Assembly: GCF_009834345.1 (NCBI RefSeq)
Contig: NZ_CP035042.1
Span: 3,472,001 to 3,536,000, forward strand
From: Billgrantia tianxiuensis
GTDB taxonomy: Bacteria > Pseudomonadota > Gammaproteobacteria > Pseudomonadales > Halomonadaceae
DNA: 64,000 nucleotides
Reading direction: 5' to 3'
Numbering within the stretch: position 1 is the first letter of the stretch; the number at the start of each line of letters is the position of its first letter. Below, piece by piece: positions 3,950-50,531 of this stretch. A program made the translations under genes and the position numbers. The notes below the pieces were generated by a model that worked only from the letters and a program-made list of their open reading frames with translations, had not been told where the DNA came from and did not search any database.

Positions 3950-3970
3950 TTCTTTCCGACCCAAACGCAG

Positions 3971-3994
3971 CGAGGCCCGCTCATGCGGGCCTCG
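3971..3994. terminator. Hairpin between convergent lnt and phaC
   Basis: A perfect 10-bp inverted repeat (CGAGGCCCGC, loop TCAT, GCGGGCCTCG) lies between the 3' ends of lnt and phaC. There is no strong U-tract on either side, but position and stability suggest a bidirectional terminator. Confidence 0.7.
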
Positions 3995-4025
3995 TCGATT
4001 CACCAGGTGGATACGAGCCAGCGAC

Positions 4026-8197: not shown

Positions 8198-8227
8198 GGA
8201 CGTGCCTCCCGATATCTTGGTGGTGGA

Positions 8228-9178
8228 TCAGGCGAAGGACGCCGCATGGGCGTCGAGTTCCGCGGCGGTGAGGGCGAACACGCCCTGGCCGCCGCGCTCG
8301 AAGTCGAGCCACAGGAAAGGCACCTCGGGGAAGGCCGCCTCCAGGTGACGGTCGGAGTTGCCGACCTCGACGATCAGCACGCCGTCGTCGCTGAGGTGAT
8401 TACGCGCCTCGCGCAGGATGCGCCGCACGATGTCGAGCCCGTCGGCCCCAGCCCCCAAGGCCAGCTCGGGCTCATGGCGATACTCGGCGGGCATGGTGGC
8501 GAGATCACGGGCATCCACGTAGGGCGGGTTGGAGACGATCAGGTCGTAGCGCTGTCCAGCCAATCCTTCGAACAGATCCGAGAGCACCGCCCGCACCCGC
8601 GCACCGACATCGTGACGCTGGATGTTCTGCTTGGCGACGGCCAGGGCATCGACGCTGACGTCGGAGAGATCGACCTCGCAGGTCGGCAGGTAGAGGGCGG
8701 TGGCAATACCGATGCAGCCCGAACCGGTGCACAGGTCGAGCACCCTGGCGGGCGGCTCTTCGGGAAACCAAGCGGCAAAGCCGGACTCGATCAGCTCGGC
8801 GATGGGCGAGCGCGGAATCAGCACGCGCTCGTCGACGTCGAATGGGAAGCCGGCATAGAACGCCTCCCCGAGTAGGTAGGGCAGCGGCCGGCGTGAGGAG
8901 ATACGCTCGCGCACCAGGCCGACGATACGCGCTCGCTCCATGGGCAGCAGCCTGGCTTCGAGCACTCCCGGGTCGACGTTCCAGGGCAGATGCAGCGCAC
9001 CCAGCGTCAGGGCGACGGCTTCGTCCCAGGGAGAATCGGTGCCGTGGCCGTGAAACAGCCCGGCCAGATGAAATTCACTGGCCGCCCAGCGCAGGAAATC
9101 GCGCAGGGTGACGAGATCACGACACAGCGCCTCGTCGTCCAGGGTGAGGGTCGAGCGGGAAACGATGGAATTGGCCAC
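8228..9178 (-). CDS. prmB: Ribosomal protein uL3 glutamine methyltransferase PrmB
   Basis: A 316-residue class I SAM-dependent methyltransferase of the HemK/PrmB family that methylates a Gln of ribosomal protein L3. It carries the SAM-binding motif [13 protein letters not shown] and the Gln-recognising [10 protein letters not shown] motif. The PrmB-type N-terminus ([12 protein letters not shown]) separates it from PrmC. It is divergent from the Smr-domain gene, as in E. coli, and is followed 30 bp on by aroC. Confidence 0.94.
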
Positions 9179-9296
9179 GAAAGGTCCTGCAGGGTCGTTG
9201 TAGGTCGATGGCTAGATTGTACCCGCGGCGGCAGGCGGTTCACAGCCACGCTCAGGCCGCTATACTGGGCCGCTCGACGACATCATACGAGCGCTC

Positions 9297-9875
9297 ATGA
9301 GCCAACGCCGCCCACCCGACGACGAAGACGACGATACCAATGCCTTTCGCCGGGCGCTGCGTGAGGCCGGCGTGCGCCGTATCAAGGTCAACCGCGCCGA
9401 CCCGGGGCGGGCACGCCGTTCGGACCCGGCCGCAGCACAGCGGCGCGCCGCCGCGGTGTCGAGCGACGCCAACGATCTCGTCAGTCGTACCAGTGACGGT
9501 CGCGTGGAGCCGGTTCGCCCTTCCGAATATCTCGACTTCGCCCTGCCCGACCTGCCCTACCGCACCCGCAGCCAGCTCAAGCGCGGCCAGATCGCCTGGG
9601 AAGCAGGCCTCGATCTGCATGGCTACAGCCTCGACGAGGCGCGCCTCGAACTCGAGAGCTTTCTCAAGGAGGCAGTCGGCAGCCATATGCGCTGCGTGCT
9701 GGTGGTCCATGGCAAGGCGTGGGGAAGCACGGCGGATTACCCGGTGATCAAGAGCCACATCAATGCCTGGCTGCGTGAGTGGCCCACGGTTCTGGCCTTC
9801 TGCTCTGCCCGCGAGAGCGACGGCGGCACCGGTGCCGTCTATGTGCTGTTGCGGCGTCGCGGACAGGCCCTCTAG
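9297..9875 (+). CDS. smrB: Smr-domain endonuclease (SmrB/YfcN-like)
   Basis: A 192-residue protein with a charged N-terminal extension and a C-terminal Smr domain from about residue 95: LDLHGYSLDEAR and VVHGKAWGS, the LDLHG and HGxG-like signatures. SmrB in E. coli is a ribosome-rescue nuclease that cleaves mRNA at collided ribosomes. It sits divergent to prmB as in E. coli. Its TAG stop and the stop of the convergent patatin gene share the palindrome CTAG at 9872-9875. Confidence 0.88.
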   Translation: MSQRRPPDDEDDDTNAFRRALREAGVRRIKVNRADPGRARRSDPAAAQRRAAAVSSDANDLVSRTSDGRVEPVRPSEYLDFALPDLPYRTRSQLKRGQIAWEAGLDLHGYSLDEARLELESFLKEAVGSHMRCVLVVHGKAWGSTADYPVIKSHINAWLREWPTVLAFCSARESDGGTGAVYVLLRRRGQAL

Positions 9876-10933
9876 CCCCCGCCTCCCGACTCACGATCGG
9901 CCGGCATTTGCGGCGGCTCGACGATCATGCCGCCGCTGCCGCCATCGCCGCTGTGAGTGCGTCCTTCATAGCGGTCCAGGGCCTCCATGGCCAGGTGACG
10001 CCCCAGGCGAACCAGCGCCTCGGCCCGATGGAACTCGAAGGCACCGCACACCGTCTTGGGTACCTCGATCAGCACATCGGGTGGATAGCCCGCGATCTTG
10101 TACTTGGCCAGGGAGGCCTGGGTGATGTCGAAAGAAGCCAGGATCATGTCCAGCCGCCCCCAGGCGCGTCGTCCGGTGGCGGCACGCCCGCCTTTGCCAG
10201 CGGCCTCGGTCTCGCCGAGATCGGGCCCACCGAGGCCTTCGAACAGCCAGCGGGTCGCACCGCGGACATCCATCCACTTGCGCGCCGCGGCCTCCGCCTC
10301 GGCTTCGTTTTCAGCCTGCTCTTCGGCGGGCAGCAGATCGTCGAGCGCCACCGGCCGGGCGCTGTGGGCGGTCACGTTGACTGCCAGCATCATGTCGGCG
10401 TGGGCCGAAACGGTAGGTGTGATCGGCAGCGGATTGAGCAGGCCACCATCGACCAGGGTGTTGTCGCCGATATGCACCGGCGTGATGACGCCCGGAATGG
10501 CGATGGAAGCACGAATCGCCCGCAGCAGCGGCCCCGACTGGAACCACACCTCGCGCTGACGCACCAGGTCGGTGGCTACCGTGGTCAGCGGAATCGGCAG
10601 GTCCTCGATCAGAATGTCGCCCACCAGTTCCTCGAGCTTGCTCATTACCTTGCTGGCGCGCATTGCCCCCATCGGGCTCCAGGTGACGTCGACCAGCTTG
10701 AGCACGTCGAAGTAGTCGAGCTGGCAGACCCAATCACGGTAGGCCTCGAGCTGCCCTGCAGCGTAGACGCCAGCGATGACCGAGCCCATCGAGCAACCCG
10801 AGATGGCGACGATCTCGTAGCCGCGCGCCTCGAGCACTTCGATCACGCCGATATGGGCATAGCCGCGCGCACCGCCGCTGCCCAGCGTCAGTGCCACTCG
10901 CTTGCCCATTTCCTCCACCGCCTTGCTGCTCAT
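9872..10933 (-). CDS. Patatin-like phospholipase (RssA type)
   Basis: A 353-residue patatin-fold lipid acyl hydrolase. The Gly-rich oxyanion motif GSGGARGYAHIG, the nucleophile elbow GCSMGS and the DGG of the Ser-Asp dyad (LVDGGLLNPLP) are all present, and the overall pattern follows the RssA/YlbK type. An Ala/Glu-rich insert lies around residues 200-220 and a Gly/Pro-rich tail ends the protein. I chose the start at 10933 because GGAGG precedes it and MSSKAVEEMGKRVALTLG fits the family; a longer in-frame extension runs through non-homologous sequence. Substrate unknown. Confidence 0.85.
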   Translation of the reverse strand: MSSKAVEEMGKRVALTLGSGGARGYAHIGVIEVLEARGYEIVAISGCSMGSVIAGVYAAGQLEAYRDWVCQLDYFDVLKLVDVTWSPMGAMRASKVMSKLEELVGDILIEDLPIPLTTVATDLVRQREVWFQSGPLLRAIRASIAIPGVITPVHIGDNTLVDGGLLNPLPITPTVSAHADMMLAVNVTAHSARPVALDDLLPAEEQAENEAEAEAAARKWMDVRGATRWLFEGLGGPDLGETEAAGKGGRAATGRRAWGRLDMILASFDITQASLAKYKIAGYPPDVLIEVPKTVCGAFEFHRAEALVRLGRHLAMEALDRYEGRTHSGDGGSGGMIVEPPQMPADRESGGGG

Positions 10934-35965: not shown

Positions 35966-36030
35966 GGCGATGTCTCTGTTTGCCCAAACATGCCGGAAGT
36001 TTACCAGTCCCTCTCGATCCCTGCGCGCCT

Positions 36031-36062
36031 AGCGGGCTGTCAGTTCAGTCCGACAGCCCGCT
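36031..36062 (-). terminator. Stem-loop over the GNAT stop codon
   Basis: A perfect 11-bp stem AGCGGGCTGTC / GACAGCCCGCT with a 10-nt loop includes the stop codon of the acetyltransferase gene. No T-tract follows on the minus strand. It could limit read-through into yajQ. Confidence 0.5.
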
Positions 36063-36522
36063 CTTCCGTTGCAACGACAAGAGGCTTGCTCATCTGCCAG
36101 CCGGCACAGCCATCCTCGTAGTAATCCTCGAGCCAGCGTTCGAGGCGAAAGCCCATGCGCCGGTAGAGCCCCAGGGCAGCACGGTTATCTACCCGGACCT
36201 CCAGGCCCAGCGCGGTGCAATCGTAACGGACGGCGACCCGCTCCAGGGCTTCGAGCAGTTGGCGCCCCAACCCGCTGCCGCGCGCTTGCGGATGCACGCA
36301 GAACGAATAGAGCCGGGCGCGGCGGCTGCCACGCCGGAACAACAGGGTGCCGTATCCCACCAGTCTCTCCCCGTCATCGGCGACGAGAGTCTCGGCATGA
36401 GCGCGATTCAACAGGTGCCACAGCTGTCGACGACTGAAGCGATCGCCGCTGAAGGCCACCTGCTCCAGGCGATAAAGTGCGCCCAGATCCTGCGGATGGG
36501 CCTGGCGCAGGGTGACGTTCAT
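36040..36522 (-). CDS. GNAT-family N-acetyltransferase
   Basis: A 160-residue GNAT protein: VTLRQAHPQDLGALYRLEQVAF, acetyl-CoA P-loop QARGSGLGRQLLEALE (Q/RxxGxG/A), and the C-terminal LGLEVRVDNRAALGLYRRMGF motif of RimI-type enzymes. It is divergent from the RimK-type gene across 183 bp; GNAT/RimK neighbours are common in proteobacteria and may modify the same target. Substrate unknown. Confidence 0.85.
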   Translation of the reverse strand: MNVTLRQAHPQDLGALYRLEQVAFSGDRFSRRQLWHLLNRAHAETLVADDGERLVGYGTLLFRRGSRRARLYSFCVHPQARGSGLGRQLLEALERVAVRYDCTALGLEVRVDNRAALGLYRRMGFRLERWLEDYYEDGCAGWQMSKPLVVATEERAVGLN

Positions 36523-36705
36523 GAAATTCTCCGGGACTGGCTGCAGCGATGTGGCAACAGGGCGATGACCATACGGACGACGACTGGGCCGTCAGTCATG
36601 AAATCATTTCACCTGTCGAAGCGCTTGTCGACTGCAAGATGCAACGGCATGCTGGCCGCATCCAGCGGCGTCATGCCGCCTCTTACACTCGAACGGAACT
36701 CGCCC

Positions 36706-38214
36706 ATGTGCCCTTTGCGAATCGTCATCGATCGGCAGGAAGACTGGCAGCCCTACTACCCTTCCGAAGACCTGATCAGCGCAGATGATTTCCTGGCCCT
36801 GGATCGGCGTCATCGCGCGGCCGCCGACCAAGATCGCAGCACCCACGTGATCAACCTGTGCGGCGAACTCGATTACCTGGGTACCGGCTACTATGTTTCG
36901 CTGCTCGCCCAGGCCCGCGGTCAACGTGTGCTGCCGAGCGTCGAAACGCTCAACGAGCTATCGCGCAAGGTCCTGGTCGATCTGCAGTTGGATACGCTGG
37001 CACCGCTGCTTGGCGAGCTGGCACGCCAGGGACGCCTGGCCGGCGACAGCGTGACGCTGCGCGTGTTGTTCGGCGAGTGTCGAGAACCCGAACTTGCCCG
37101 GTTGGCGCGCAAGCTCTTCGAACGCCTGCCGTGCCCCCTGCTGGAGGCACGCCTGGTGCGGCGCCACGACCTGTGGCGGCTGGCCCGACTCAAGCCAATC
37201 CACCTTCGTGACCTCAACGCCGAGGAACAGGATCTCTTCGCCTCCGCCCTCAATCGCCACTCGCGCAAGGTATGGCGCACACCCAAGGCGCGCCGTCGCT
37301 ATCGCTTCGACCTGGCCATTCTGATCGACCCCAAGGAGGCCATGCCACCGAGCAACAAGAGCGCGCTCAAGGCCTTCATCCGTGCTGGGCGCAAGCTAGG
37401 CATCGATGTCTCGCTGATCACTCGACGCGATGCAGGGCGGCTGGCCGAGTTCGATGGACTCTTCATCCGCGAGACCACGGCGTTGGACCATCACACCTAT
37501 CGCATGGCCCGCTTGGCCGAGCACGAAGGGTTGGTGGTGATCGATGCGCCACGCGACATCCTGCGTTGCACCAACAAGGTCTACCTGCATGCGCTGCTGC
37601 GCGCCCGCGGCGTGCCGGCGCCGGAAGGCGTACTGCTCAAGCGCCGCGACCGGCGCCCGCTCGGCGAGCGAATCGCCGGCCTGAGCTTCCCTCTGGTATT
37701 GAAGATTCCCGACGGCTCCTTCTCTCGCGGCGTGGTCAAGGTCGAATCGCTGGAGCAGCTAGAGCGCGAGGCCCGGCGCCTGTTCGAGGACTCCGCTCTG
37801 CTGCTGCTGCAGGAGTGGCTGCCGACCGAGTACGACTGGCGTATCGGCGTTCTGGATGGGCAGGTGCTGTTCGCCAGTCGCTACTACATGGCTCGCGGAC
37901 ATTGGCAGATCTATGACCATTCAGGCGCACGGGTGAAGAGCGGCGGCTTCACTACCCACGACCCCGCCGAGGTGCCACCAGCCGTCATTCGGGCGGCACT
38001 CAAGGCTACCCGCCTGATCGGCAACGGGCTCTATGGCGTGGATCTCAAACAGACAAAGGATCGCGTCGTCGTCATCGAGGTGAACGACAACCCCAATGTC
38101 GACGCCGGCATCGAGGACAGCGTGCTCGGGCGCCAGCTCTACGAGCGCATCATGGAGGTCTTTTTGACTCGTATGGAAGCGCGGGTCGCGGCCAGGACGG
38201 AAGGTGCCCGCTAA
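36706..38214 (+). CDS. RimK-family ATP-grasp ligase with N-terminal RLAN-type domain
   Basis: A 502-residue protein. The N-terminal ~200 residues (VIDRQEDWQPYYPSEDLISADDF, CGELDYLGTGYYVSLLAQARG) look like the RimK-like ATP-grasp N-terminal domain; the C-terminal half is an ATP-grasp ligase with VLKIPDGSFSRGVVKVES, QEWLPTEYDWRIGVLDG and VIEVNDNPNVDAG (Mg-binding Glu/Asn). Members attach amino acids, often Glu, to protein or peptide tails. I placed the start at 36706 (MCPLRIVIDRQED), because the upstream in-frame extension crosses the GNAT gene. Target unknown. Confidence 0.83.
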   Translation: MCPLRIVIDRQEDWQPYYPSEDLISADDFLALDRRHRAAADQDRSTHVINLCGELDYLGTGYYVSLLAQARGQRVLPSVETLNELSRKVLVDLQLDTLAPLLGELARQGRLAGDSVTLRVLFGECREPELARLARKLFERLPCPLLEARLVRRHDLWRLARLKPIHLRDLNAEEQDLFASALNRHSRKVWRTPKARRRYRFDLAILIDPKEAMPPSNKSALKAFIRAGRKLGIDVSLITRRDAGRLAEFDGLFIRETTALDHHTYRMARLAEHEGLVVIDAPRDILRCTNKVYLHALLRARGVPAPEGVLLKRRDRRPLGERIAGLSFPLVLKIPDGSFSRGVVKVESLEQLEREARRLFEDSALLLLQEWLPTEYDWRIGVLDGQVLFASRYYMARGHWQIYDHSGARVKSGGFTTHDPAEVPPAVIRAALKATRLIGNGLYGVDLKQTKDRVVVIEVNDNPNVDAGIEDSVLGRQLYERIMEVFLTRMEARVAARTEGAR

Positions 38215-38574: not shown

Positions 38575-39921
38575 ATGAAGATCACCATCTTCGGATCTGG
38601 CTATGTGGGACTGGTAACCGGCGCTTGTCTGGCCGATGTCGGCCATCGGGTCATGTGCGTGGACGTCGATGAGGCGAAGGTAGCTCGCCTCAACGCTGGC
38701 GAAGTGCCCATCTACGAGCCTGGCCTGGAGCAATTGATCGCAAAGAACAAGGCCGCCGGCCGCATCGAGTTCACCACCGACGCCGCCAAGGCGGTCGACT
38801 TCGGCCTGCTCCAGTTCATCGCCGTGGGCACGCCATCCGACGAGGATGGCAGCGCCGACCTCAAGTATGTGCTCAAGGTTGCCGAGACCATCGGTCAGCA
38901 CATGCACGACTACAAGATCGTCGTCGATAAATCCACCGTACCGGTGGGAACCGCCAGCAAGGTGGAACGTACCGTTGCCGCCGAATTGGAAAAGCGTGGT
39001 CTGGACCTGGAGTTCGATGTCTGCTCGAACCCCGAATTCCTCAAGGAAGGGGCCGCTATCGAGGATTTTTCGCGCGGTTCGCGCATCGTCGTCGGCACCG
39101 ACTCGGAGCGCGTCAGGAAAGCCATGCTGGAGTGCTACGGGCCCTACAACCGCCAGCGAGACAAGATGATGTTCATGGGCGTACGCAGCGCCGAGCTGAC
39201 CAAGTACGCCGCCAACGCCATGCTGGCGACCAAGATCAGCTTCATCAATGAAGTCGCCAATCTGGCCGAGCGTCTCGGAGCCGATGTCGAGGAGGTGCGC
39301 CATGGCATCGGCTCCGACCCGCGTATCGGCTACAGCTTCATCTACCCCGGTTGCGGCTATGGCGGTTCCTGCTTCCCCAAGGACGTCAAGGCTCTGGCCC
39401 ATACCGCCGAGGAGATCGGGCACCCCGCCGAGATGATCAAGGCAGTGGAGCGAGTCAATGCCCGGCAGAAGAACAAGCTGTTCGAGAAGCTCTGCCAGGC
39501 CTTCGACGGCCAGCTCGCGGGCAAGACCATCGCCATCTGGGGACTTGCCTTCAAGCCCAACACCGACGACATGCGCGAGGCACCCAGCCGCGCCTTGATG
39601 GAAGCGCTGTGGGAGGCCGGGGCGCGAGTTCAGGCCTACGACCCGGAGGCTTCGGACGAGTGCCGCCGCATCTACGGCGAGCGCGATGATCTGGTGCTGG
39701 CCGAGCAGCGTGACGACGCCCTGGAAGGCGCCCATGCGCTGGTCATCTGCACCGAGTGGAAGGCCTTCCGCACCATCGACTTCCCCGAACTCTACGAAAA
39801 GCTCGAGGAGCCGGTGCTGGTCGACGGCCGCAATCTGTTCCAACCCGATACCGTCAAGGCCGCCGGGCTCGCCTACTACGGTATCGGACGAGGTGACTCC
39901 GTGCGGCCCGTACTGGCCTGA
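38575..39921 (+). CDS. ugd: UDP-glucose 6-dehydrogenase
   Basis: A 448-residue NAD-dependent enzyme oxidising UDP-glucose to UDP-glucuronate. Rossmann motif [52 protein letters not shown] and the catalytic Cys266 in [12 protein letters not shown]. These features match Pseudomonas-type UDP-glucose dehydrogenase. They do not match AlgD, whose corresponding VGTPS segment and N-terminus differ. It is the first gene of the polysaccharide locus and ends 9 bp before the Alg8-like synthase, the position of algD in alginate operons. Confidence 0.92.
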
Positions 39922-39930
39922 GGAGTGACC

Positions 39931-41859
39931 ATGTCCGCTACTCCCCGAGACCATACCACGGCCAGCCGGATCACCGAGCTGACGACGTTCCTGCTCGGCC
40001 TGTCGCTGCTGATCGTCATCATCAGCGAGCTGCCGGCGGATGTGTTTTCCCCCGAGTCGCAGAGTTTCTTCTTCGTCATCGGGGCGATTGCCATGTGGCG
40101 CTACTCATGGTGGGCCGTGCAGGCGGCGCGCTCGACCTGGTACAACCGGATGATCTTCCCGCGCCTGCGAGCGGAGGCCGATGCGGCGGGCGAGCTGGAG
40201 CGGCCACCGGAGCTATTCGTGCTCTGCACCTCCTTCCGCATCGAGGCCAGGGTCAACTTCCAAGTCTATGACGCTCTGATCCGGGAAGCGCGCGACTATG
40301 GCGTGCCGACGACCATCTTCGCCTCCGTCTCGGACCGTACCGACGTGGACGTCATCACTCATGTGATGGACGAGCACGGCTGGCCGCGGAACGTCGAAGT
40401 CCGCTACATGTTCCAGAAGGGGGACGGCAAGCGCTCGGCCATGGCCGAGGTGCTGCGTGCGATCTCCCGGCGCCTGCCGGCGCCGGGAGCGCTGCTGATC
40501 TCGATGGATGGGGATATCCGGCTGGAGCCAGGCACCCTTTCGCGCTCGCTCTCCTTCTTCCAGGCCCAGGACGATCTCGGTGCGCTGACCACCAACAATC
40601 GGGCCGAGGTGACCGGCAACGATGCCACCTGCGAGTGGTATGACCTGCGCTACGCACAGCGGCACCTGATGATGAGCTCGATGTCGGTATCGCGTCGCCT
40701 GCTGGTGCTGACAGGACGCTACAGCGTGTTCCGCGCCGACCTGGCAACGCAGCCGGACTTCATCGAGCTGATCGAGAACGATCATGTCGAGCACTGGCGC
40801 TTCGGCAACTTCAAGTTCCTCTCGGGCGACGACAAGTCCTCCTGGTACTGGTTGCTGAAGAACGGCTGGCGCATGCTCTACATTCCCGATGTCTTCGTGA
40901 CCGGATTCGAGGAGCTGCCCGACCGACGGCGCTTCTTCGCCTCGACCACCGACCTGATGCGCCGCTGGTACGGCAACATGCTGCGTACCAGCAACCGCGC
41001 CATCTCCCTGGGGCCACGGCCGATGGGCGTATTCACCTGGTGGAGCCTGATCGATCAGCGCCTCTCGATGTGGACGACCCTGGTCGGCCCCACGGTAGTC
41101 ACGCTAGTGTCGCTGTTCGTGCGGCCCTCCTTCTTCTTCGCCTACGTGTTGTGGATTCTCTTCACTCGCGGTATCGCGACCTCGATTCTGGCCTGGCAAC
41201 GCGGACGCTTCAGCCTGCTGTGGATCCCGCTGATCTACTACAACCAGGTCTGGGGCGCGATGCTGAAGACCTACGTCAGCTTCCGCTTCAACCGCCAGAA
41301 GTGGTCGCGCCAGGGCATCTCGGCAGGCGAACCGAACGACCCTGTCGCCGCGCGCCGGCAGCGCCGCATGGGCCATGTGCTGCATGGCTTCGCCTACGGC
41401 GTGCTGCTGTTCGTGCTGATTCTCTCGACCGGTGTCATGACCCCTCCGGACCGGGTATCGCTGCACATCGCCCGCGACCAGACCTGGGAGCGCAATCAGC
41501 AGCCCGAGCGGCTTGACCGCTGGCTCGGCGCAACTCTCGTCGACAACACCCGCGACGCGGTGCAACTCCCCTCGGGACACTTCCGGCTGGGCGGCGAGCT
41601 GATCGAGACCCTGCAGCGGAACACCCTGGCCGAAAGCAAGCAAATCGAGGGCAACCTAGGAACCACGATCCTCGCTATTTCTCCGGCCATGGCGGAACTG
41701 ATGCAAGGACCGAGTGGCGAGCCCATCCAGGATGCCGTCCAGTGCACCGTGGATGCCAACTGCCAGCTGGCTCTCGACGAACATAACCTGACCCTTGTCA
41801 ACGTACGACTCAGGGTCGAGCCCGAAGCCCCCGCCAACGTGGCAGCGGCTCATCCCTGA
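39931..41859 (+). CDS. Alg8-like GT2 polysaccharide synthase with extra C-terminal domain
   Basis: A 642-residue inner-membrane processive glycosyltransferase. Two N-terminal membrane helices, a GT2 domain with D193xD195 (SMDGDIRLEP), the acceptor/catalytic region ENDHVEHW and SGDDKSSWYWLLKNGWRMLY, RRWYGNMLR in the QxxRW position, then helices including FFFAYVLWILFTRGI. These are Alg8 landmarks. After a last helix at about 489-505 comes a ~135-residue tail, presumably periplasmic, that Alg8 (about 494 residues) lacks. Start at 39931 from AGGAG five bases upstream. Substrate inferred to be UDP-glucuronate from the coupled ugd. Confidence 0.85.
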   Translation: MSATPRDHTTASRITELTTFLLGLSLLIVIISELPADVFSPESQSFFFVIGAIAMWRYSWWAVQAARSTWYNRMIFPRLRAEADAAGELERPPELFVLCTSFRIEARVNFQVYDALIREARDYGVPTTIFASVSDRTDVDVITHVMDEHGWPRNVEVRYMFQKGDGKRSAMAEVLRAISRRLPAPGALLISMDGDIRLEPGTLSRSLSFFQAQDDLGALTTNNRAEVTGNDATCEWYDLRYAQRHLMMSSMSVSRRLLVLTGRYSVFRADLATQPDFIELIENDHVEHWRFGNFKFLSGDDKSSWYWLLKNGWRMLYIPDVFVTGFEELPDRRRFFASTTDLMRRWYGNMLRTSNRAISLGPRPMGVFTWWSLIDQRLSMWTTLVGPTVVTLVSLFVRPSFFFAYVLWILFTRGIATSILAWQRGRFSLLWIPLIYYNQVWGAMLKTYVSFRFNRQKWSRQGISAGEPNDPVAARRQRRMGHVLHGFAYGVLLFVLILSTGVMTPPDRVSLHIARDQTWERNQQPERLDRWLGATLVDNTRDAVQLPSGHFRLGGELIETLQRNTLAESKQIEGNLGTTILAISPAMAELMQGPSGEPIQDAVQCTVDANCQLALDEHNLTLVNVRLRVEPEAPANVAAAHP

Positions 41860-41879
41860 ATGCAAGGAGCGACCAACGG

Positions 41880-43439
41880 ATGGCTGATCATTTTTCCCAC
41901 GACGACCCCAAGCGGCATGAGCCTACCCTGGGAGAAGCGCGTTCAAGGCGACGGCCCGCCTCTTCTGCCGAGCCTGACAACGCGGACCATGACAGCGTGC
42001 GCCTGACCCGGGGCGACCGACTCCAGCATGAGCGTCGCGACGAACGGGGCTACATACGCGTTACGCTCCCGTTTCGTGTCGATCTCGACGACAGCGACAT
42101 TGAGCTGAACGGCAATGATGTCTCGCTGGGAGGCTTTTCCGCCCAGAGTTCGCATAGATTCGAACCCGGCGATCGCATCTCGGCCTCACTGTTGATGATG
42201 GCGGGCGCCACCGAGCTGATCGTTCCGCTGAAGGCCGAGTGCCTGCGCACCACCCGCGCGGCGAGCGGCAATGGCTACGACATCAGCTTCGAGATCACCG
42301 AGATCGAGCCGCAGCATCGCGAGCTGCTGCGCCAGATCATCCGCAGCGCGCTGAGCGGCCGCTCGCCCAATGTCGAAGGGTTGATCGGTGGCGAGGATCC
42401 GCAGACGCCGCGCAAGCGTCAGGCGACCAAGCCGCTGCCGCCCGCGCGTCCGCCCAAGCCGATGGGACGCTATATCCTGCTGTTCGTCGCCATCGGCCTG
42501 CTGGTGCTGGTAGGGGCGGCTACCGCTTACCGCAACTTCATGCTGATCGAGCCGAGCTTCGCCGCCGTGACGGCGCCGCGTATCGACATCCGGGCGCCCG
42601 GCCCCGGGATTCTCGGCGAGCACGACCTAACGGCCGGTGATCGGGTCGAGCGCGATCAGTTGCTGACCAACGTGGTCAACAGCGAGCTGGAATCGGACCT
42701 GATCCTTGCCGAGGCGGCGATCGACTACAACAACCGCCTGCTCGAGAACCTCCGCGAGCACCTCGAAGGCGGTATGCAGGAGGTCAGCCTAGCCAACTCG
42801 GCACAACCCGCCAGCGGCGACACCATGACCTTCGAGTCGGTCTCGCCCGAGATTGCCCAGGCCCGGATCGAGCAGTTCGAGACAGTACGCGACTACGAGA
42901 GTTCACGCATTGCCGCGCTCGAGGCGCGCATGGCAAGCAACGACATCTACAGTCCCTGCGACTGCCTGGTGGCCTGGGCGCTGAGCAGCGCCGATGGGGT
43001 CTACATCAACGAAAGCGAGCGGATCATGACCCTGATTCGCACTGACGAGGACGATGTGCTGGTCGAGGCATTGGTGCACATGAACGACATCAGCCGCATC
43101 GAACCCAACCAGCAGGCCTACGTGACATTGGCCAACGCCAACCAGCCGATCCGCGCCCGGGTGCGCAACGTTGCGCTCGACGTTGAACGCCAGCCGCGTG
43201 CCGGCTTCCCCAGTTGGGTGCGCCAGCAGCAGAACGTGGCCAGCGTACTGCTGGTACCCGAGGAGCCGCTGCCCGCAGAGAGCGTCGGCCAACCCGTGGA
43301 CGTACGCTTCACCGAAGCTCCACTGCTGGGTGCCGCCTCGGAGCGGATCTGGCAGGGCGTACGCTCGGTCATCCAGTTCGGCGACGACATTTATCGCGCC
43401 GCCACGGAGGACAATGATGAAGTTACCGATGAAGGCTAA
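41880..43439 (+). CDS. Alg44-like PilZ / membrane-fusion co-polymerase
   Basis: A 519-residue protein. After a charged N-terminus it has a PilZ domain with R52xxxR56 (also R56xxxR60) and D80xSxxG85, the c-di-GMP-binding signatures, then a Pro-rich linker, one membrane helix near residues 196-220, and a periplasmic HlyD-like arm (APGPGIL, helical hairpin, IYSPCDCLVAWAL, barrel). This is the Alg44 layout: c-di-GMP binding on the cytosolic side switches on the synthase. It is longer than Alg44 (about 389 residues), mainly in the N-terminus, linker and hairpin. Follows the synthase by 20 bp; its end overlaps the next gene. Confidence 0.85.
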   Translation: MADHFSHDDPKRHEPTLGEARSRRRPASSAEPDNADHDSVRLTRGDRLQHERRDERGYIRVTLPFRVDLDDSDIELNGNDVSLGGFSAQSSHRFEPGDRISASLLMMAGATELIVPLKAECLRTTRAASGNGYDISFEITEIEPQHRELLRQIIRSALSGRSPNVEGLIGGEDPQTPRKRQATKPLPPARPPKPMGRYILLFVAIGLLVLVGAATAYRNFMLIEPSFAAVTAPRIDIRAPGPGILGEHDLTAGDRVERDQLLTNVVNSELESDLILAEAAIDYNNRLLENLREHLEGGMQEVSLANSAQPASGDTMTFESVSPEIAQARIEQFETVRDYESSRIAALEARMASNDIYSPCDCLVAWALSSADGVYINESERIMTLIRTDEDDVLVEALVHMNDISRIEPNQQAYVTLANANQPIRARVRNVALDVERQPRAGFPSWVRQQQNVASVLLVPEEPLPAESVGQPVDVRFTEAPLLGAASERIWQGVRSVIQFGDDIYRAATEDNDEVTDEG

Positions 43440-44310
43440 TGCTGCCCGCATACCGTTCGGCAATTGCCGATTGCTGCTATTGAGTGGCCTGATGATGTTG
43501 CCGGTATCTGCCGCCCATGCCGACGAGGCCGAGAATGCCCTCGTCGGCATTCCCCAGGAGGAAGCCTGTTCGCAGCGTTACGTGCAGGCCGAGACGCCCC
43601 GTCCGCAGCACGCTGCGAACGGCCATGCCGCCATTCGGCAGAACTTCCATACCAGTCGCCACTGGGGCACCGAGGAGAACGTGGAGCGCCTAGGCGCCGC
43701 GCAGACCGGCATCGGCGAACCCGGACTGCGCGTGCATTACCCCGCCGGCACCTCTTCGCCGGGAGACGAACCCCGTGGCGGTGCCGGATTTTATAGCGAT
43801 CCACCATCGCTGCGCGGCGCTGATCGGGCCTGTCTCAGCTACATGGTGCGCTTCCCGGCGGACTTCGACTTCGTTCGCGGTGGCAAGCTGCCGGGACTCT
43901 ACGGCGGCGAAGCCCCATCGGGGGGCGAGGACGTCGACGGCACGAGCGGCTTCTCCATGCGCCTGATGTGGCGTGAAGAGGGGGAAGGCGAGCTCTATCC
44001 CTATGTCGTCGGCTTCGAGGGTGATTCGGTGGGCCGCGGCTTCTGGCACTTCCCGGTTGGCCGCTGGGTCACCGTCGAACAGGAGATCGTGCTCAACGAT
44101 CCCGACCTCGACAATGGCATCGCCCGTCTCTGGGTCGATGGCCGGCCGGTGCTGGAGCAGCAGAACGTGGTATTCCGCACCACGCCGGAGATCACCATCA
44201 ATGGCCTGATGTTTTCCACGTTCTTCGGCGGTACCGGCGAAGGTTGGCGCACGCCACGCGATCAGTACGTGGACTTCGCCGCCTTCCGTTTCTATACGCC
44301 GCAGCCTTGA
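43417..44310 (+). CDS. PL14-like polysaccharide lyase, copy 1
   Basis: A 297-residue secreted protein: signal peptide about residues 1-33 (to SAAHADEA), then a beta-jelly-roll domain with WGTEENVERL, GGKLPGLYGGEAPSGG, SMRLMWREEGEGELYPYV, ARLWVDGRPVLEQQNVVFR and FSTFFGGTGEGWRTP. These I associate with polysaccharide lyase family 14/20-type proteins; family assignment is by eye. Two start codons lie in tandem; the second (43417) has GGAGG at the proper distance. It overlaps the 3' end of the Alg44-like gene by 23 nt. A near-identical-length paralogue lies at 48341-49233. Confidence 0.75.
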   Translation: MKLPMKANAARIPFGNCRLLLLSGLMMLPVSAAHADEAENALVGIPQEEACSQRYVQAETPRPQHAANGHAAIRQNFHTSRHWGTEENVERLGAAQTGIGEPGLRVHYPAGTSSPGDEPRGGAGFYSDPPSLRGADRACLSYMVRFPADFDFVRGGKLPGLYGGEAPSGGEDVDGTSGFSMRLMWREEGEGELYPYVVGFEGDSVGRGFWHFPVGRWVTVEQEIVLNDPDLDNGIARLWVDGRPVLEQQNVVFRTTPEITINGLMFSTFFGGTGEGWRTPRDQYVDFAAFRFYTPQP

Positions 44311-44348
44311 TCAATTTGCATTCGAGCGCCAATGGAGCGACGCCGATC

Positions 44349-45589
44349 ATGCCCCTTGCCGTAGTAAAAGGATTTATCGTACGACTGCCCATGATGCTCG
44401 CCTGCGTTTTGCTGGCAGGCGTCACCGCGACGGCCGACGACACCCTCTCGCGAGAGGAGCGCATGGAGCTCGACCTCTCGGAGTATCGTGTCACTGACAC
44501 GGACGCCAGCTACTTCGATGTGGAAGCGCGCATGGAGTTGCTGCGCGAGACCCAGAATCCCATTCTGTTGCAATTGAAGGACGAGCTGTCACTAGGCCCC
44601 AGTTGCCAGCAGAAGCTCAACTTCACTCCCATCACCACACGAGGCGGGATCCCCGGTTTCTATCCCAACCCGGAGGAGTGGGAGTTGGCCACAGAGCCTC
44701 TGTTCGCCTTCGAAGATAGTGTGTCGGTGCTGGCCGGGGCCTTCGTCGCCAGCAGCGACACCTTCTATGCCGATTGCTTGGTGCGCTTTCTGCACGGCTG
44801 GGCCGAAGCCAAGGCGCTGACCACTTTCGTCTTTGACCCCAGGAGCCCCAAGCCTGGTTCGCCTCCGAATCGATGCTGTTCGCCGCGGCCATGGCCTACT
44901 CCATCGTGCGCCCCCATGTGGATGGCCTCGAGGAGGAGCGCGCCGAAGTCGAGCAGTGGCTGCATGGCCTCGCCCTACAACATTCAGCATTCCCCGGCGA
45001 GCCGGAAGAGAGCTGCTGCAATAACCACTTCTACCGGCGTGCACTCTACGCCACCATGATCGGCGTGCTGGTAGAGGACGACGACCTGTTTCGCTTCGGC
45101 GTCAGCGCCGTTTACTCGGCACTACACGACATGACCGAGAACGGCGCCCTGCCGCTGGAAGTCGGACGCGGCCGGCGTGCAACGCACTACCAGAACTATG
45201 CGCTGAATTATCTGATTACCAACATGCAGATCATTCATCGCCAAGGCTACGACATCTTCGATCTGGAATACGAAGGCAACGACATTCACGAGGGCATCGA
45301 TTTCCTCTTCCAGATTCTCGACAACCCGGCGGCGCTGGGCGACTACGCGCCGCAGGAACAATTTACTGGCTTCCTGCGGGATCCCCAGTATTTCACCTGG
45401 ATGGATATCTACCTCACCCACTTCGATCATCCGCAGGTAGCCGATTTCGTCACCCGGGTGCGCCCCACCTACAACCGCAGCGCCGGAGGCTTCATTACGC
45501 TCTATTTCATGGACCCCGAGGCCCAGCAACATATCTATCTCGACGAGGAGCGCCGGAGTACCGAGGCCTTCCGCGGCCTGGGCAATTGA
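44349..45589 (+). CDS. PL5 (AlgL-like) uronate lyase, copy 1, one frameshift
   Basis: About 413 residues when joined at the run CCCC 44846-44849 (one base short). It has a signal peptide and then the alpha-toroid of family PL5. The catalytic Asn-His is in CCNNHFYRRAL, and the Arg/Tyr pair in GRGRRATHYQNYAL matches AlgL's NNHSYW and R-A-x-x-Y-HNYAL. PL5 enzymes depolymerise poly-mannuronate, and at least one member acts on poly-glucuronate. In alginate systems AlgL clears misplaced polymer from the periplasm; the same housekeeping job is likely here. Paralogue at 49283-50531. Confidence 0.83.
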
Positions 45590-45633
45590 AGACGAAAGGA
45601 CTTCCCGGAACCACATAGAAAAGAGGGGACAAC

Positions 45634-48278
45634 ATGGAACGCTTGACGAACGGGACTCGACGCCTCCCCTCGCTGCGACTGACCGCGGCGATCACCTTAT
45701 CGGCATGGTTGGCCGGCTGTGCAGTGACCTCGGACGAACCGCCGAGTGGCGAGCATGCACGGGCCGTTCCCGAGCAGTATGCCGCCTGGTTCGCCGGCGG
45801 TCTTGAGGCCGACATCGACTCGTCGGACTGGAGCCGCATCAATCGCGCCCAGGAGCTCATTGATGAGGGGCGCTACAACGAAGCCATCGACTACCTGCAG
45901 CCGCTGGTCAATCGCGATGTGCCGCCTGCCTACTACGAAATGGCCAAGCTCTACGACCAGGGCCTGGGCATCGAGGAAAACCCCGCCGAAGCGGCGCGTC
46001 TCTATGGCCTTGCCATCGAGCGGCCCTCCTCCGTGCGCGGCCACGCCTCGCTCAACCTCGCCCGGCTCTATCTCGAGGGCCGTGGCGTAGAGCGTAACGA
46101 CGTGCTGGCCTACCATCTGCTCTGGCAAGCCAAGGAGGCCGACCTCGAGCGCACCGCCGAAGTGCTGCTCGCCGACCTGCTAGCCGAAGGCGGTGAAGGA
46201 GTCGAGGCCGACCCGGACTTGGCCCGCCAGCTCTATGAGCAGGCGGCTGCCCAAGGTCAACAGCAAGCCCTGCAAGCCCTGGCCGAGGCGCATGCGCCCG
46301 GCGGCTGGCTCGAGGAAGATCCGGCCCAGGCCATGGATTATGCCCAGCGGCACGCCGAGGTGCTCCAGCAGCAAGCCAGTGCAGGCGACGTCAATGCCAT
46401 GCTTCAGTTGGCCTCGCTCTATTCGGCTGACGGCCTGCTGGGCGATCAACCCAGCCAGCGCATTCATTGGTTGCAGCAGGCAGCCCAGGCCGGCGACCTG
46501 GATGCCCTGGCGGGGCAGGACGCGACATGATCGAGGTCGGCGAATACCGGCAGGGTATCGAGCTGCTGGCGGATGCCGCCCGCCAAGGGCATGTCGATGC
46601 CATGACCTACCTTGGCCAGGCACTGCTCGAACCCGAGTCCGGCCAGCCGCAACCAGTACAAGCCGAGCGCTGGCTGCGTGAGGCGATCAACGCCGGCTCG
46701 GTCGATGCCCAGGTGATCCTCGGCCGCGCCCTGGTCGAAGGCCAGGGTGGTCTCAACGACTTGCCACGTGGCATGGGCTTGCTCGAGCAAGCCGCCGAGC
46801 ACGACCACCCCCTGGCGCTGGCGCAGCTGGGCTCGCTCTATCTGGACGACGAGCGAATCGCCGGCCAGCCCTATATTGCCGTCGACTATCTCGAGCGTAG
46901 CCATGAACTCGGCCACCCTTGGGCAACACAGCAGCTGGGGGCAGCCTATCTCGAGGGGCGTGGCGTGCCGCAGGATCCCGCCCGGGGCGAGGAACTGCTG
47001 CGGCAGGCCGCCGAGCACGGGCAGTCGGGCGCGATGCGGTTGCTCGGCGAAGCCTACCTGGACGAGGAGAACCCCAACTTCCAGCCCAGCCGTGGCGAGG
47101 AACTGCTGCGTCAAGCCGCACAGGCTGGCGATACCACGGCCATGACCCAACTTGGCGAGGCCTACCTGGAAGGGCCGCTGCGGGAGGACCCCACCCAAGG
47201 CATCCAACTGCTGACCCAGGCCGCCCAGCAGGGCGACGCCTATGCCATGGTGGTCCTGGGCCGCGCCTATCGCAACGGCAACGGCGTGGAGCGCGACCTG
47301 AACGAGGCCAACCGCTGGCTGACGCTAGCCCAGCAGGCGGGGCACGAGTCCGCGGACGATGCGCTCACCTACGTACAGCGCGACCTGGGCGCCCAAGGCA
47401 ATATCGAGGCGCTCGTCGCCGCTGCCGAGGATGGCCATCCCGGCGCCATGGCCGATCTTGGCCGCGCCTTCCTCGATGGCGAAGGCGTTCAGCGCGACCA
47501 GCAGCAAGCCGAATACTGGCTGGACCGAGCTCACCAGGCGGGTCATGCCGGCGCCGCGGCAAGCCTTGGCCGGATGTATATGGACCGGGGCGACAGCGAG
47601 CGCGGCATCGACTATCTGGAAGCCGCCGTGGCACGCGGACACGCCGGCGCCCGCAGCGACCTGGGCGAAGCCTACCTGACCGGTGACCACGTGGAGCTTG
47701 ATACCGAGCGTGGCATCGAGTTGCTGACGGCAGCGGCGGAATCCGGGGCAACCCATGCGGCCTTTGTGCTGGGCGAGGCTTACCAGCACGGCAACGGCGT
47801 GGAACAAGACGCCGAGCAGGCCGAACGCTGGTACCGCCAGGCTAGCGATGCCGGCGCCGACTATGCGCGTGCCGCCCTGGGGCTCGCCCTGATCCGCGGC
47901 GAAGGCGCCATCGACCAGGATGTCGAGCAGGGTCATGAGCTGCTGCTCGATGCCGCCGAACAGGGACATCCAGGCGCCCAGGCCTCACTCGGACGCGAAT
48001 ATCTGCGTGGCGAGAACATCGAGGCCGACCCGGAGCGCGGGGCGGACTACCTCTACCAGGCGGCTAGCCAGGGGCATAGCAGCGCGCGTCTCGCCCTGGC
48101 CGAAGCCTACCTTTCATCCCGCGGCCTGGAGCAGGCCAACCAGCAGCAGGCCCTGCTGTGGCTGGATGATGTCTTCGAGAGCGAGGGCCAGCTCGCCATC
48201 GAAACCCTGCGTCAACTGCTTACCGATGAAGAGGCCATTGCCGCCGCCAGTGAGGTGGAGGTAGAGGCAGAAGAGTAA
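45634..48278 (+). CDS. Large Sel1-repeat lipoprotein (AlgK-like), one frameshift
   Basis: About 881 residues when joined at GGGG 46512-46515 (one base short). Lipobox AWLAGC (Cys about residue 29), then some 20 Sel1/TPR-like repeats of the form A-x-LG-xx-Y-x-x-G-x-x-V-x-x-D, running almost to the C-terminus. AlgK, the alginate outer-membrane lipoprotein that organises the AlgE porin, has the same architecture but about half the length. It therefore probably scaffolds the export path of this polymer. It sits between the two lyase cassettes and has an AGGGG ribosome-binding site. Confidence 0.82.
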
Positions 48279-48285
48279 GTCCTCG

Positions 48286-48316
48286 CTCGCCCCACAGGCC
48301 CAACCCGTGGGGCGAG
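48286..48316 (+). terminator. Intercistronic stem-loop before the second lyase cassette
   Basis: CTCGCCCCAC (48286-48295) pairs perfectly with GTGGGGCGAG (48307-48316) over an 11-nt loop, 8 bp after the Sel1 gene stop. No U-tract follows, so partial termination or mRNA processing is more likely than full termination. Confidence 0.5.
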
Positions 48317-48340
48317 TCGCTTCGACCCGATGAGGCAAGC

Positions 48341-49233
48341 ATGAGACAGCTAACGCCGTGGAAAGCACGCGCCGCTCCATGGCTGCTGGCCATGGCGAGC
48401 CTGGGTTCAGCGCTCGTGTCCGCACATGGAAATGATGACGTGGCCCAACCCAGGTTGGCCCCCTGCTCGGAGCGCTATTCCCTCGTAGCCAACCTGCAGC
48501 CAGCGCACTGGCTACAAACAGGCAAGGATGCCATCCGCCAGGACTTCTCCTCGACCCGGGACTGGGGCACCGAGGAGAACGTTCTTTTGCTCGATCCTTT
48601 GAGCAGCGGCCTGGCGGAGCCCGCACTGCGCGTTCTCTATCCCAAGGACAGCTCCTCGCCGAGCGATGCCGATAAGACCGAAGTGCCGCGAGGCGGTCTG
48701 GGCTTCTATACCGAGGAAGCGCGCTTGCAGGGCGCCGATCGGGTGTGTCTACACTACCGGTTACGGTTCGAAGCGAACTTTGACTTTGTCAAAGGAGGTA
48801 AACTCCCCGGACTCTACGCAGGCGAAGCGCCCAGCGGGGCGAGGAGGCCACCGGCAAGAACGGCTACTCGCTAAGACTGATGTGGCGCGAAGATGGCCAA
48901 GGTGAACTCTACGCCTACCTGGTCGGACGTGAAGGCGAGTCCATCGGTCGAGGCTCCTGGTACTTCCCCTCGGGCCGCTGGGTCAGCGTCGAGCAGGAAG
49001 TGATCCTCAACACGCCCGGCGAGGAGGACGGCATCGTGCGCTTGTGGATCGACGGCTGGCCCGTGCTCGAGCAGCGCGGCCTCGTCTATCGCACCACCGA
49101 GGAGGTCGGTGTCGATGGCGTGATGTTCTCCACCTTCTTTGGCGGCACCGGCGAAGAGTGGCGAACGCCGCGCGACCAGCATGTCGATTTCGCCGACTTC
49201 CGCCTGTTCGCCCCGAGCCGAAGGAGCGGCTGA
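48341..49233 (+). CDS. PL14-like polysaccharide lyase, copy 2, one frameshift
   Basis: Joined at GGGG 48836-48839 (one base short) this gives 297 residues, exactly the length of copy 1. Signal peptide to about SALVSAHG, then WGTEENVLLLD, FVKGGKLPGLYAGEAPSG, SLRLMWREDGQGELYAY, VRLWIDGWPVLEQRG and FSTFFGGTGEEWRTP, clearly the same family with well over half of positions shared with copy 1 by eye. Followed after 49 bp by the second PL5 gene, as copy 1 is followed by the first. Confidence 0.74.
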
Positions 49234-49282
49234 CAAGAGGATTCGCAGTCGCAGCGCTATCAATGCAGGAGGCAGATACGCT

Positions 49283-50531
49283 ATGACGCAACCAGGACAA
49301 GATCCAAGACACTGCTACCTACGCCAGTTGAGCTGCACGGCGGCGTGCCTGACCCTGGCACTGGGAAGCATTGCCCAGACTAAAGCCCTGACGCTGGAGG
49401 AGCGCGAGCAGCTCGACCTCTCCGCGTACGAGGTTGTCGACCCCGACGCATCCTACTTCAACGTTGAGGAACGCATGGAGGTGCTGCACGAAACGGACAA
49501 TAGCCTGTTGATGCAGCACCGGGAGGAACTGGCCAAGTATGCGCCAAGCTGCCGGCAGCGATTGGAAATTCCGACCATTACCGAGAAAATGCGCATCCCG
49601 GGGTTCTACCCACCCCGATGACTGGAAGCTCGCCACCGAGCCACTGTTCAAATTCGAGGATACCGTCTCGGAGCTGGCCGGCGCCTACGTGGCCAGTGGC
49701 AACGTGTACTACGCCGAATGCCTGGTCAAGTTCCTGGACCGGTGGGCTCAGGATGACGCCCTACTCGACTTTCACTATCACTGGGAGCAACCGCAAGCCT
49801 GGTTCTCGCTGGAATCGATGATCTTCGCCGCCGGCATGGCCTATTCCGTTGCCCGACCGTTCGTCGAGGGCATGCAGGAGGAACGGGCCCGGGTCGAGGA
49901 GTGGCTCAATGAGCTTGCCAGTGTACACATGGAGATCGAAGGGGCTGATAGCAGCTGCTGCAACAACCACTTCTACCGTCGGGCGCTCTACGCCGCCATG
50001 GTCGGCGTGCTGACCGAGGACGATGCCATGTTCCGCTTCGGTGTCAGCGCCATCTACTCCGCGCTTCACGACATGACCGAAGAGGGAGCCTTTCCGCTCG
50101 AGATGGAGCGTGGCAGGCGGGCCACCCACTACCAGAACTATGCCCTACTCTACTTGGTTCCGATCATGGAGATCGTCGCGCGCCAGGGATACGATATCTA
50201 TGAATACGAGGTGGACGGCGGCACCATGCACGATGCGGTGGATTTCGCCATGGACATCCTCGAAGATCCCTCGCAGCTCGGCGACCTGGCGCCGCGGGAG
50301 CAGTACACGGGTTTTCTCAAGGACAACCAGTACTTCGCCTGGATGGAGATGTACCGGGCTCGCTTCGGCGAATCCCGCTTCGACGACTTCCTGGCCTCGA
50401 TGCGCCCCATCTACAACCGCGGGGCGGGCGGCTACGCGACGCTCTACTTCATGGATCCCGAAGCCCAGCAGCATATTCGCCACAACGAAGAGGAGCGCCA
50501 GACACGGGCCTTCGAAGGACTGTCCAACTGA
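49283..50531 (+). CDS. PL5 (AlgL-like) uronate lyase, copy 2, one frameshift
   Basis: About 416 residues when joined near CCC 49609-49611 (two bases short or one extra; the paralogue's FYPNPEEW suggests two short). Signal peptide near SIAQTKA, then LDLSAYEVVDPDASYF, the catalytic CCNNHFYRRAL and GRRATHYQNYAL regions and a C-terminal YFMDPEAQQHI shared with copy 1. It is the last gene of the locus, ending at a strong hairpin. AGGAGG lies ten bases before the ATG at 49283. Predicted periplasmic polyuronate lyase. Confidence 0.82.

Follow-up and report, generated by a model that had tools for sequence, protein, structure and literature searches.

An Alg8-like synthase operon headed by ugd in Billgrantia tianxiuensis: a candidate glucuronan-type exopolysaccharide system

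The window analysed here is a stretch of 64,000 nucleotides from Billgrantia tianxiuensis (NCBI RefSeq assembly GCF_009834345.1, contig NZ_CP035042.1, positions 3,472,001 to 3,536,000 of the forward strand), and between its positions 38575 and 50531 it carries a series of genes built around an Alg8-like membrane synthase. These genes, all on the plus strand, are ugd, synthase, alg44-like, PL14, PL5, Sel1, PL14 and PL5. Open reading frames and domain matches recover every gene that an earlier sequence-only reading of this DNA had named, on the same strand and close to where it had placed them. We consider it likely that the genes encode a synthase-dependent system, fed by UDP-glucuronate and controlled by cyclic di-GMP (c-di-GMP), that makes a beta-1,4-glucuronan-type exopolysaccharide. 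The well-supported part of this proposal is the donor, which is very probably UDP-glucuronate, and a polymer of the glucuronan type is a plausible and rather likely product.

There are 38 Halomonadaceae loci in a genome scan for relatives of the synthase, and the closest relative of the window's copy belongs to Billgrantia zhangzhouensis (96%). In 37 of these loci ugd is located directly upstream of the synthase gene, ending 4 to 409 bp ahead of the first aligned synthase base, and the 38th locus (L025) is on a contig beginning within the synthase. The order ugd-synthase-alg44-PL14-PL5-Sel1 is kept in all 37 complete loci. Because ugd is so regularly upstream, and is accompanied by alg44, PL14, PL5 and Sel1 each time, the arrangement is not due to chance. 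The ugd-alg8-alg44 linkage that the sequence-only reading had picked out in one genome thus holds for 37 of the 38 loci.

A synthase match is present in 52 of the 151 Halomonadaceae genomes sampled. Wider samples overlap one another and also pick up Alg8-type synthases; they had matches in 36 of 390 genomes of the order, 24 of 398 of the phylum, 23 of 385 of the class of genome G674 and 20 of 247 of the family of genome G485. Judging from likeness to named plasmid loci, this class is probably Alphaproteobacteria and this family is probably that of Rhizobium. No relative was found in the viral contigs collection.

The first gene of the operon, ugd (38575..39921, plus strand; PF03721, PF00984 and PF03720), encodes a UDP-glucose 6-dehydrogenase, the enzyme that makes UDP-glucuronate. 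Its best solved relative is the UDP-glucose dehydrogenase 2y0e (E 1.6e-168), whereas a GDP-mannose dehydrogenase matches at 1e-61, and the translation includes GGSCFPKD, which we take to be the catalytic Cys motif. The synthase (plus strand, frame 39925..41859; 644 amino acids, PF13641) is a family 2 glycosyltransferase (GT2) whose first ATG is located 9 bp past the ugd stop codon, as had been read from the sequence. A second ugd gene, 70% identical to the operon copy, lies at 2760940-2762067 of the same genome (L002, L167).

No AlgD was found in the genome of this strain, where the best match reaches 219.8 bits, the level of Ugd, compared with 996.6 for a control. Six of the 25 genomes tested have AlgD-type genes of at least 390 bits, namely five alginate-type controls and genome G760, and the other 19, that of this strain included, give at most 238 bits, again the level of Ugd. 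AlgD is likewise absent from all 52 synthase-bearing Halomonadaceae genomes and from genome G1408 (best 247.2 bits against the 996.6 of the control). AlgX/AlgJ (PF16822) is found neither in this genome nor in any of the 20 genomes tested that fall with the window in the synthase tree, while four of five alginate-type controls are positive. For AlgE (PF13372) there is one match in the genome, 0.97 Mb away, and at 20.2 bits it falls under the cut-off of 25.2; two alginate-type loci (L083 and L092) score above it. The absence of alginate genes from the locus, as claimed earlier, is borne out by the operon frames scanned, which include no AlgD, AlgE, AlgX or AlgJ and also no AlgI, AlgF, AlgG or AlgA, although these last four were not searched for genome-wide.

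Trees of the synthase separate the two kinds of locus. Surroundings were mapped for 67 tree rows; 35 of them were labelled AlgD-type and 16 Ugd, and in the other 16 no dehydrogenase is in view (L082 is scored among the last, its ugd-type gene being about 4.2 kb away with unrelated genes between). In a tree of 81 rows, a branch with Shimodaira-Hasegawa-like approximate likelihood ratio test (SH-aLRT) support of 96 divides 40 rows (35 AlgD-linked and 5 without a dehydrogenase) from 41 (16 Ugd-linked, 11 without a dehydrogenase and 14 undetermined). A slower tree of 71 rows, from which 11 of the 81 were left out as long branches or near copies and to which the row of the window was added, supports the branch between AlgD-linked and Ugd-linked rows at 99/96. 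In a third tree of 51 chosen rows the support is 99/97, and the mannuronan synthases of Pseudomonas aeruginosa and Azotobacter vinelandii are on the side opposite the window. The synthase of the window lies outside the AlgD-linked group rather than within the true mannuronan synthases, and the outcomes that the sequence-only reading had named as refuting it did not turn up. None of the three trees has a Ugd-linked row on the AlgD side or an AlgD-linked row on the side of the window. They are unrooted, and several rows have long branches.

Comparison of the alignment groups also revealed positions with clean differences, and at positions 163, 225 and 261 of the synthase the window has F, N and V. 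This combination is present in all 16 Ugd-linked rows and in all 38 Halomonadaceae loci (15 loci are common to both sets), whereas R, E and T occupy these positions in all 35 AlgD-linked rows and in all 120 of the Alg8 homologues listed. Where the locus has no dehydrogenase (16 rows), position 225 is N (11), E (3) or Q (2). A follow-up set comprised 20 new loci from 18 genomes of the family of G485, in which the residues were read before the wider surroundings were fetched; the partial locus L197 was left out of this residue test of 21 rows. E225 is found in 19 of these, and their surroundings include AlgD-type genes in 13 cases, no dehydrogenase in view in six, and Ugd in none. The only new N225 locus (L204, from G1408, a member of the same family as G485) has a window-type synthase-alg44-PL5 series with no dehydrogenase at the locus. 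By analogy with general GT-A structure, residue 163 may be near the nucleobase, and an E or R could perhaps read guanine.

More distant loci present variations on the same gene set. L149 reads synthase-alg44-ugd-PL14-PL5-Sel1, L147 synthase-alg44-PL5-Sel1 and L148 synthase-alg44-PL5, and in L105 a galU gene (337.9 against a curated cut-off of 326.8) is located about 440 bp upstream of synthase-alg44-PL5. We infer a glucuronate polymer from four things: linkage to Ugd, missing AlgD, galU in one variant locus and the kinds of lyase present. This is the product that the sequence-only reading had assigned to this synthase. That assignment is tempered by the fact that PL5 and PL14 lyases both also cut mannuronan, and by genome G760, which combines an N225 synthase with AlgD. 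On balance, we lean slightly towards a broader view in which a single division of the Alg8 superfamily gave rise to two donor classes. One would take GDP-mannuronate and have E225, T261 and, as a rule, R163; the other would take UDP-glucuronate and have N225, V261 and, as a rule, F163. The latter, widespread in Halomonadaceae and scattered in apparent Alphaproteobacteria, would be the family of bacterial glucuronan synthases that has been missing, equipped with PL14, PL5 and Sel1 proteins of its own and exporting its product without AlgE.

Several observations weigh against these interpretations. One branch of a tree without a root accounts for the whole Ugd/AlgD split, and for this reason the residue pattern is without an independent replicate and may reflect descent rather than specificity; positions 163, 225 and 261 were, moreover, picked from the same alignment that was compared. 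None of the 20 new loci contradicts the pattern, but just one probes the N225 side, and it does so without a dehydrogenase at the locus. Residue 163 is R in 15, K in three and H in one of the new E225 loci, and R163 is thus not fixed with E225. Of the 41 rows on the side of the window in the 81-row tree, 11 have no dehydrogenase counted at the locus, and among rows of this kind the placement of L105, L108, L148, L152 and L154 is unsure (65/53 and 80/93 in the 51-row tree), with some shifting. A strict rule is broken by L158 of genome G760, one of the 11 N225 rows lacking a dehydrogenase at the locus, whose synthase is on the window's side of the tree and whose genome encodes an AlgD-type protein elsewhere (552.7 bits). 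Documented glucuronan producers are rhizobia, and links from this synthase family to proven glucuronan makers are weak. There are 14 plasmid records with a match, from Rhizobium and roseobacters, and all six that were mapped, which include three of nine Rhizobium loci, have AlgD-type genes. The nearest solved relatives of both lyases bear the name alginate lyase, which means that the sugar cannot be told from them. Finally, there is no AlgE-type or other outer-membrane pore gene among the operon frames scanned, and four genes (the first PL5, Sel1, the second PL14 and the second PL5) are each split over two frames here, a point absent from the sequence-only reading.

The Alg44-like protein (41880..43439, plus strand) combines a PilZ domain, of the type that binds c-di-GMP (PF07238, 35.1 bits), with an HlyD domain (PF13437, 40.2 bits), and shares 25% identity with an Alg44-like protein encoded in an alginate operon. 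Its translation contains the PilZ motifs RxxxR and DxSxxG, which argues for the c-di-GMP control that had been predicted. The Sel1-repeat lipoprotein (45634..48278, plus strand) is read in two frames, with PF08238 in both pieces and a LAGC lipobox assigned by eye. Its earlier description as AlgK-like rests on the layout. Against the AlgK model NF038194 the two pieces score 26.1 and 91.6 bits, with a cut-off of 700, and the model decides nothing because the AlgK-like protein of the alginate-type locus L083 scores only 60.3.

These parts suggest the following scheme. Ugd would oxidise UDP-glucose to UDP-glucuronate beside the membrane synthase, which would be gated by the PilZ domain of its Alg44-like partner. 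The synthase would join glucuronate into a beta-1,4-linked polymer and move it across the inner membrane. A route through the periplasm might be built by the Sel1 lipoprotein together with the HlyD domain, and the lyases of both families may shorten or remove polymer there, in the way that AlgL acts in alginate systems.

The alternative that survives best concerns export. Perhaps the same uronate polymer is kept in the periplasm, or the HlyD domain hands it to a TolC-type channel and no AlgE-like pore is involved. We regard this as unlikely, but it is the most serious of the competing explanations. The operon frames scanned are in keeping with it in having no pore gene, as are the simplest relatives, L152 and L154, in which a PilZ-HlyD protein is the only partner beside the synthase (in L169 only HlyD is called), and the starts of the lyases, which by eye resemble signal peptides. 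In addition, PF13372 and the synthase do not clearly occur together. In what we take to be the same sample of 151 Halomonadaceae genomes, AlgE-family matches with an E value of 0.001 or better occur in 13 of the 52 with a synthase (25%) and in 14 of the 99 without (14%). However, every one of the 37 complete loci encodes a Sel1 protein, which, by comparison with AlgK, points to a step at the outer membrane, and a pore unrelated to AlgE may sit elsewhere. An AlgE-family protein encoded at 4.49 Mb was considered as the missing pore and rejected, because its score is weak and it does not clearly co-occur with the synthase. In L147 (genome G764), a protein with a beta-helix and an inverse-autotransporter barrel is encoded at 2515-4956, upstream of the synthase, and it is possible that this protein is an outer-membrane part.

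A second alternative is that UDP-glucuronate is used together with another sugar, for example UDP-GlcNAc or UDP-glucose, to give a hyaluronan-like or mixed polymer. This seems improbable to us. None of the synthase, the Alg44-like protein and an Alg8 has a direct match in a search of PDB sequences. The AlphaFold2 (AF2) model of the synthase has a predicted local distance difference test (pLDDT) score of 85.5, and its best matching folds are hyaluronan synthases, a point in favour of a hyaluronan-like polymer. However, a model of A. vinelandii Alg8, built as a control from an alignment in which five of 24 sequences come from the window's side of the tree, gives the same best matches with a fit at least as good. 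The fold is therefore not discriminating, and we rejected it as evidence for a UDP-glucuronate donor. The model also contains an alpha/beta C-terminal part after the last long helix (residues about 510-644), which is missing in some relatives of about 525 residues.

The lyases bear on the same question. There are two PL14 genes and two PL5 genes, all on the plus strand, and the second pair is followed by purA, which is on the opposite strand and closes off the operon. The first PL14 gene (43429..44310; PF21294, 1.5e-59) has a signal-peptide-like beginning, with its start picked by eye. The starts of both PL5 genes were chosen likewise; the first (44349..45589) spans frames 44244-45059 and 44873-45589 and matches PF05426 on the second piece (1.6e-29), and the second (49283..50531, two frames) matches it at 5.6e-39. 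The second PL14 gene (48341..49233) is also in two frames, with PF21294 on the first piece (1.1e-16) and a second piece at 48880-49233. The earlier description of these lyases as AlgL-like fits both PL5 genes, but not the PL14 genes, which belong to a separate family. Solved relatives of the first PL14 are 5gmt and VAL-1 (3a0n), and those of the second PL5 are A1-III (1hv6, 3.5e-51), 7fhu (6.7e-32) and 4ozv (1.3e-16), of which we take 7fhu to be Smlt1473 and 4ozv to be P. aeruginosa AlgL. The second PL5 copy is thus nearer to A1-III and 7fhu than to 4ozv, one of the points in favour of a glucuronate polymer. The PL5 protein keeps the N, H, R and Y that align with catalytic residues of A1-III, and the PL14 protein keeps the K, S, R, Y and Y that align with those of 5gmt. 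PL14 and PL5 enzymes act mainly on 1,4-linked polyuronates, which argues against a mixed polymer, as does the lack of an amino-sugar gene among the operon frames scanned. On the other side, Smlt1473 is described, in the part of the source available, as cutting hyaluronate as well as polyglucuronate and polymannuronate (PMC11784403).

Other proteins that may be related to the polymer are encoded in some relatives. An extra PL5-family lyase gene follows Sel1 in two Salinicola loci (L033, 20014-21255; L035, 18563-19783). In L105 (genome G674), synthase-alg44-PL5 is followed, at 8206-10566, by the gene for a beta-helix protein that contains 14 RTX repeats. Its layout recalls that of secreted C5-epimerases, and by this analogy it might act on the polymer. 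In the window itself, a frame with RLAN and RimK-like ATP-grasp domains (35980-38214) lies upstream of ugd, and it is matched upstream of ugd in most Billgrantia loci.

The split frames raise a third alternative, that the operon of this strain has decayed and makes no product, which we think quite unlikely. Apart from a split PL5 in L021, all lyase and Sel1 genes of the 37 complete related loci are unbroken. The alg44 frame is short in L018, and in four loci Sel1 occupies two frames, apparently as two distinct genes. The first PL5 and Sel1 are each one intact frame in L007, the nearest relative, and the second PL14 and PL5 copies are intact in L009, L012 and L016. Decay of the whole lineage into pseudogenes is thus rejected. 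For this strain, assembly error is the likelier cause of the breaks, because one-base length differences from L007 are found outside the operon too, and a single contig of 5.0 Mb with a completeness of 95.2% fits an assembly with small errors. Another nucleotide-sugar dehydrogenase gene of this genome (about 2576194-2576471; L005/L006) likewise seems to be broken into two frames, as would be expected if frame errors occur throughout the assembly.

A reduced alginate system, in which a mannuronan synthase is fed by GDP-mannuronate and ugd is adjacent for another reason, is very improbable: the synthase is 35-42% identical to Alg8-type synthases of its order, its PilZ-HlyD, Sel1 and PL5 partners are of the same types, G760 has AlgD, and a 2020 survey, as far as its accessible text goes, reports atypical alginate operons without export or modification genes, lacking algKE or algGXLIJF (PMC7112194), but the absence of AlgD from all 52 synthase-bearing Halomonadaceae genomes, the position of the synthase outside the AlgD side of the trees, the ugd gene in every complete locus and the galU gene of L105 all argue against it.

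We therefore return to the glucuronan-type system as the preferred explanation. The genes for glucuronan synthesis were stated to be unknown in 2023, in the portion of that article available (PMC10180729), and the main text of the 2020 survey, as accessible, contains none of the terms 'glucuron', 'UDP-glucose dehydrogenase' and 'Halomon' (PMC7112194). In a literature search by title and the start of the abstract, the coverage of which excluded most subscription papers and all preprints, no article assigns glucuronan synthesis genes or describes a ugd-alg8-alg44 linkage. The gene set predicted here, in this species and in many relatives, is a strong candidate for these genes. If this is correct, it would provide a defined glucuronan gene set in culturable, salt-tolerant bacteria, a route to glucuronan production, and a residue-level hypothesis for how synthases choose between GDP-mannuronate and UDP-glucuronate. 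It would also call for a correction of the labels of homologues, at least 16 of which, among 120 listed, are named Alg8 or mannuronan synthase in some source, the rest being mostly plain glycosyltransferases or nameless.

The closest known system is the alginate operon (algD-8-44-K-E-G-X-L-I-J-F-A), with which the operon shares a GT2 synthase, a PilZ/HlyD co-polymerase, a Sel1 periplasmic protein, a PL5 lyase and a nucleotide-sugar dehydrogenase just before the synthase. The window differs in having Ugd in place of AlgD, additional PL14 genes, a synthase of a separate group with N rather than E at position 225, and operon frames without AlgE, AlgX, AlgI/J/F, AlgG and AlgA. With the bacterial glucuronan of Sinorhizobium meliloti M5N1CS and Peteryoungia rosettiformans it would have in common a beta-1,4-polyglucuronate, as predicted here, and a lyase acting on it; the polymer of those species is acetylated, whereas no acetylation gene is seen at the window operon. 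Hyaluronan synthases (Chlorella virus and Xenopus) share the synthase fold and, if our prediction holds, the use of UDP-glucuronate, but they are only 10-15% identical to the window synthase and are matched at least as well by the Alg8 model. They make a two-sugar polymer and are not known to have a PilZ partner. The cellulose synthase BcsA has the GT2 fold and c-di-GMP control in common with the proposed system; it matches the synthase model less well than hyaluronan synthase does and uses a different sugar donor, and the PilZ domain of the window is on a separate Alg44-like protein.

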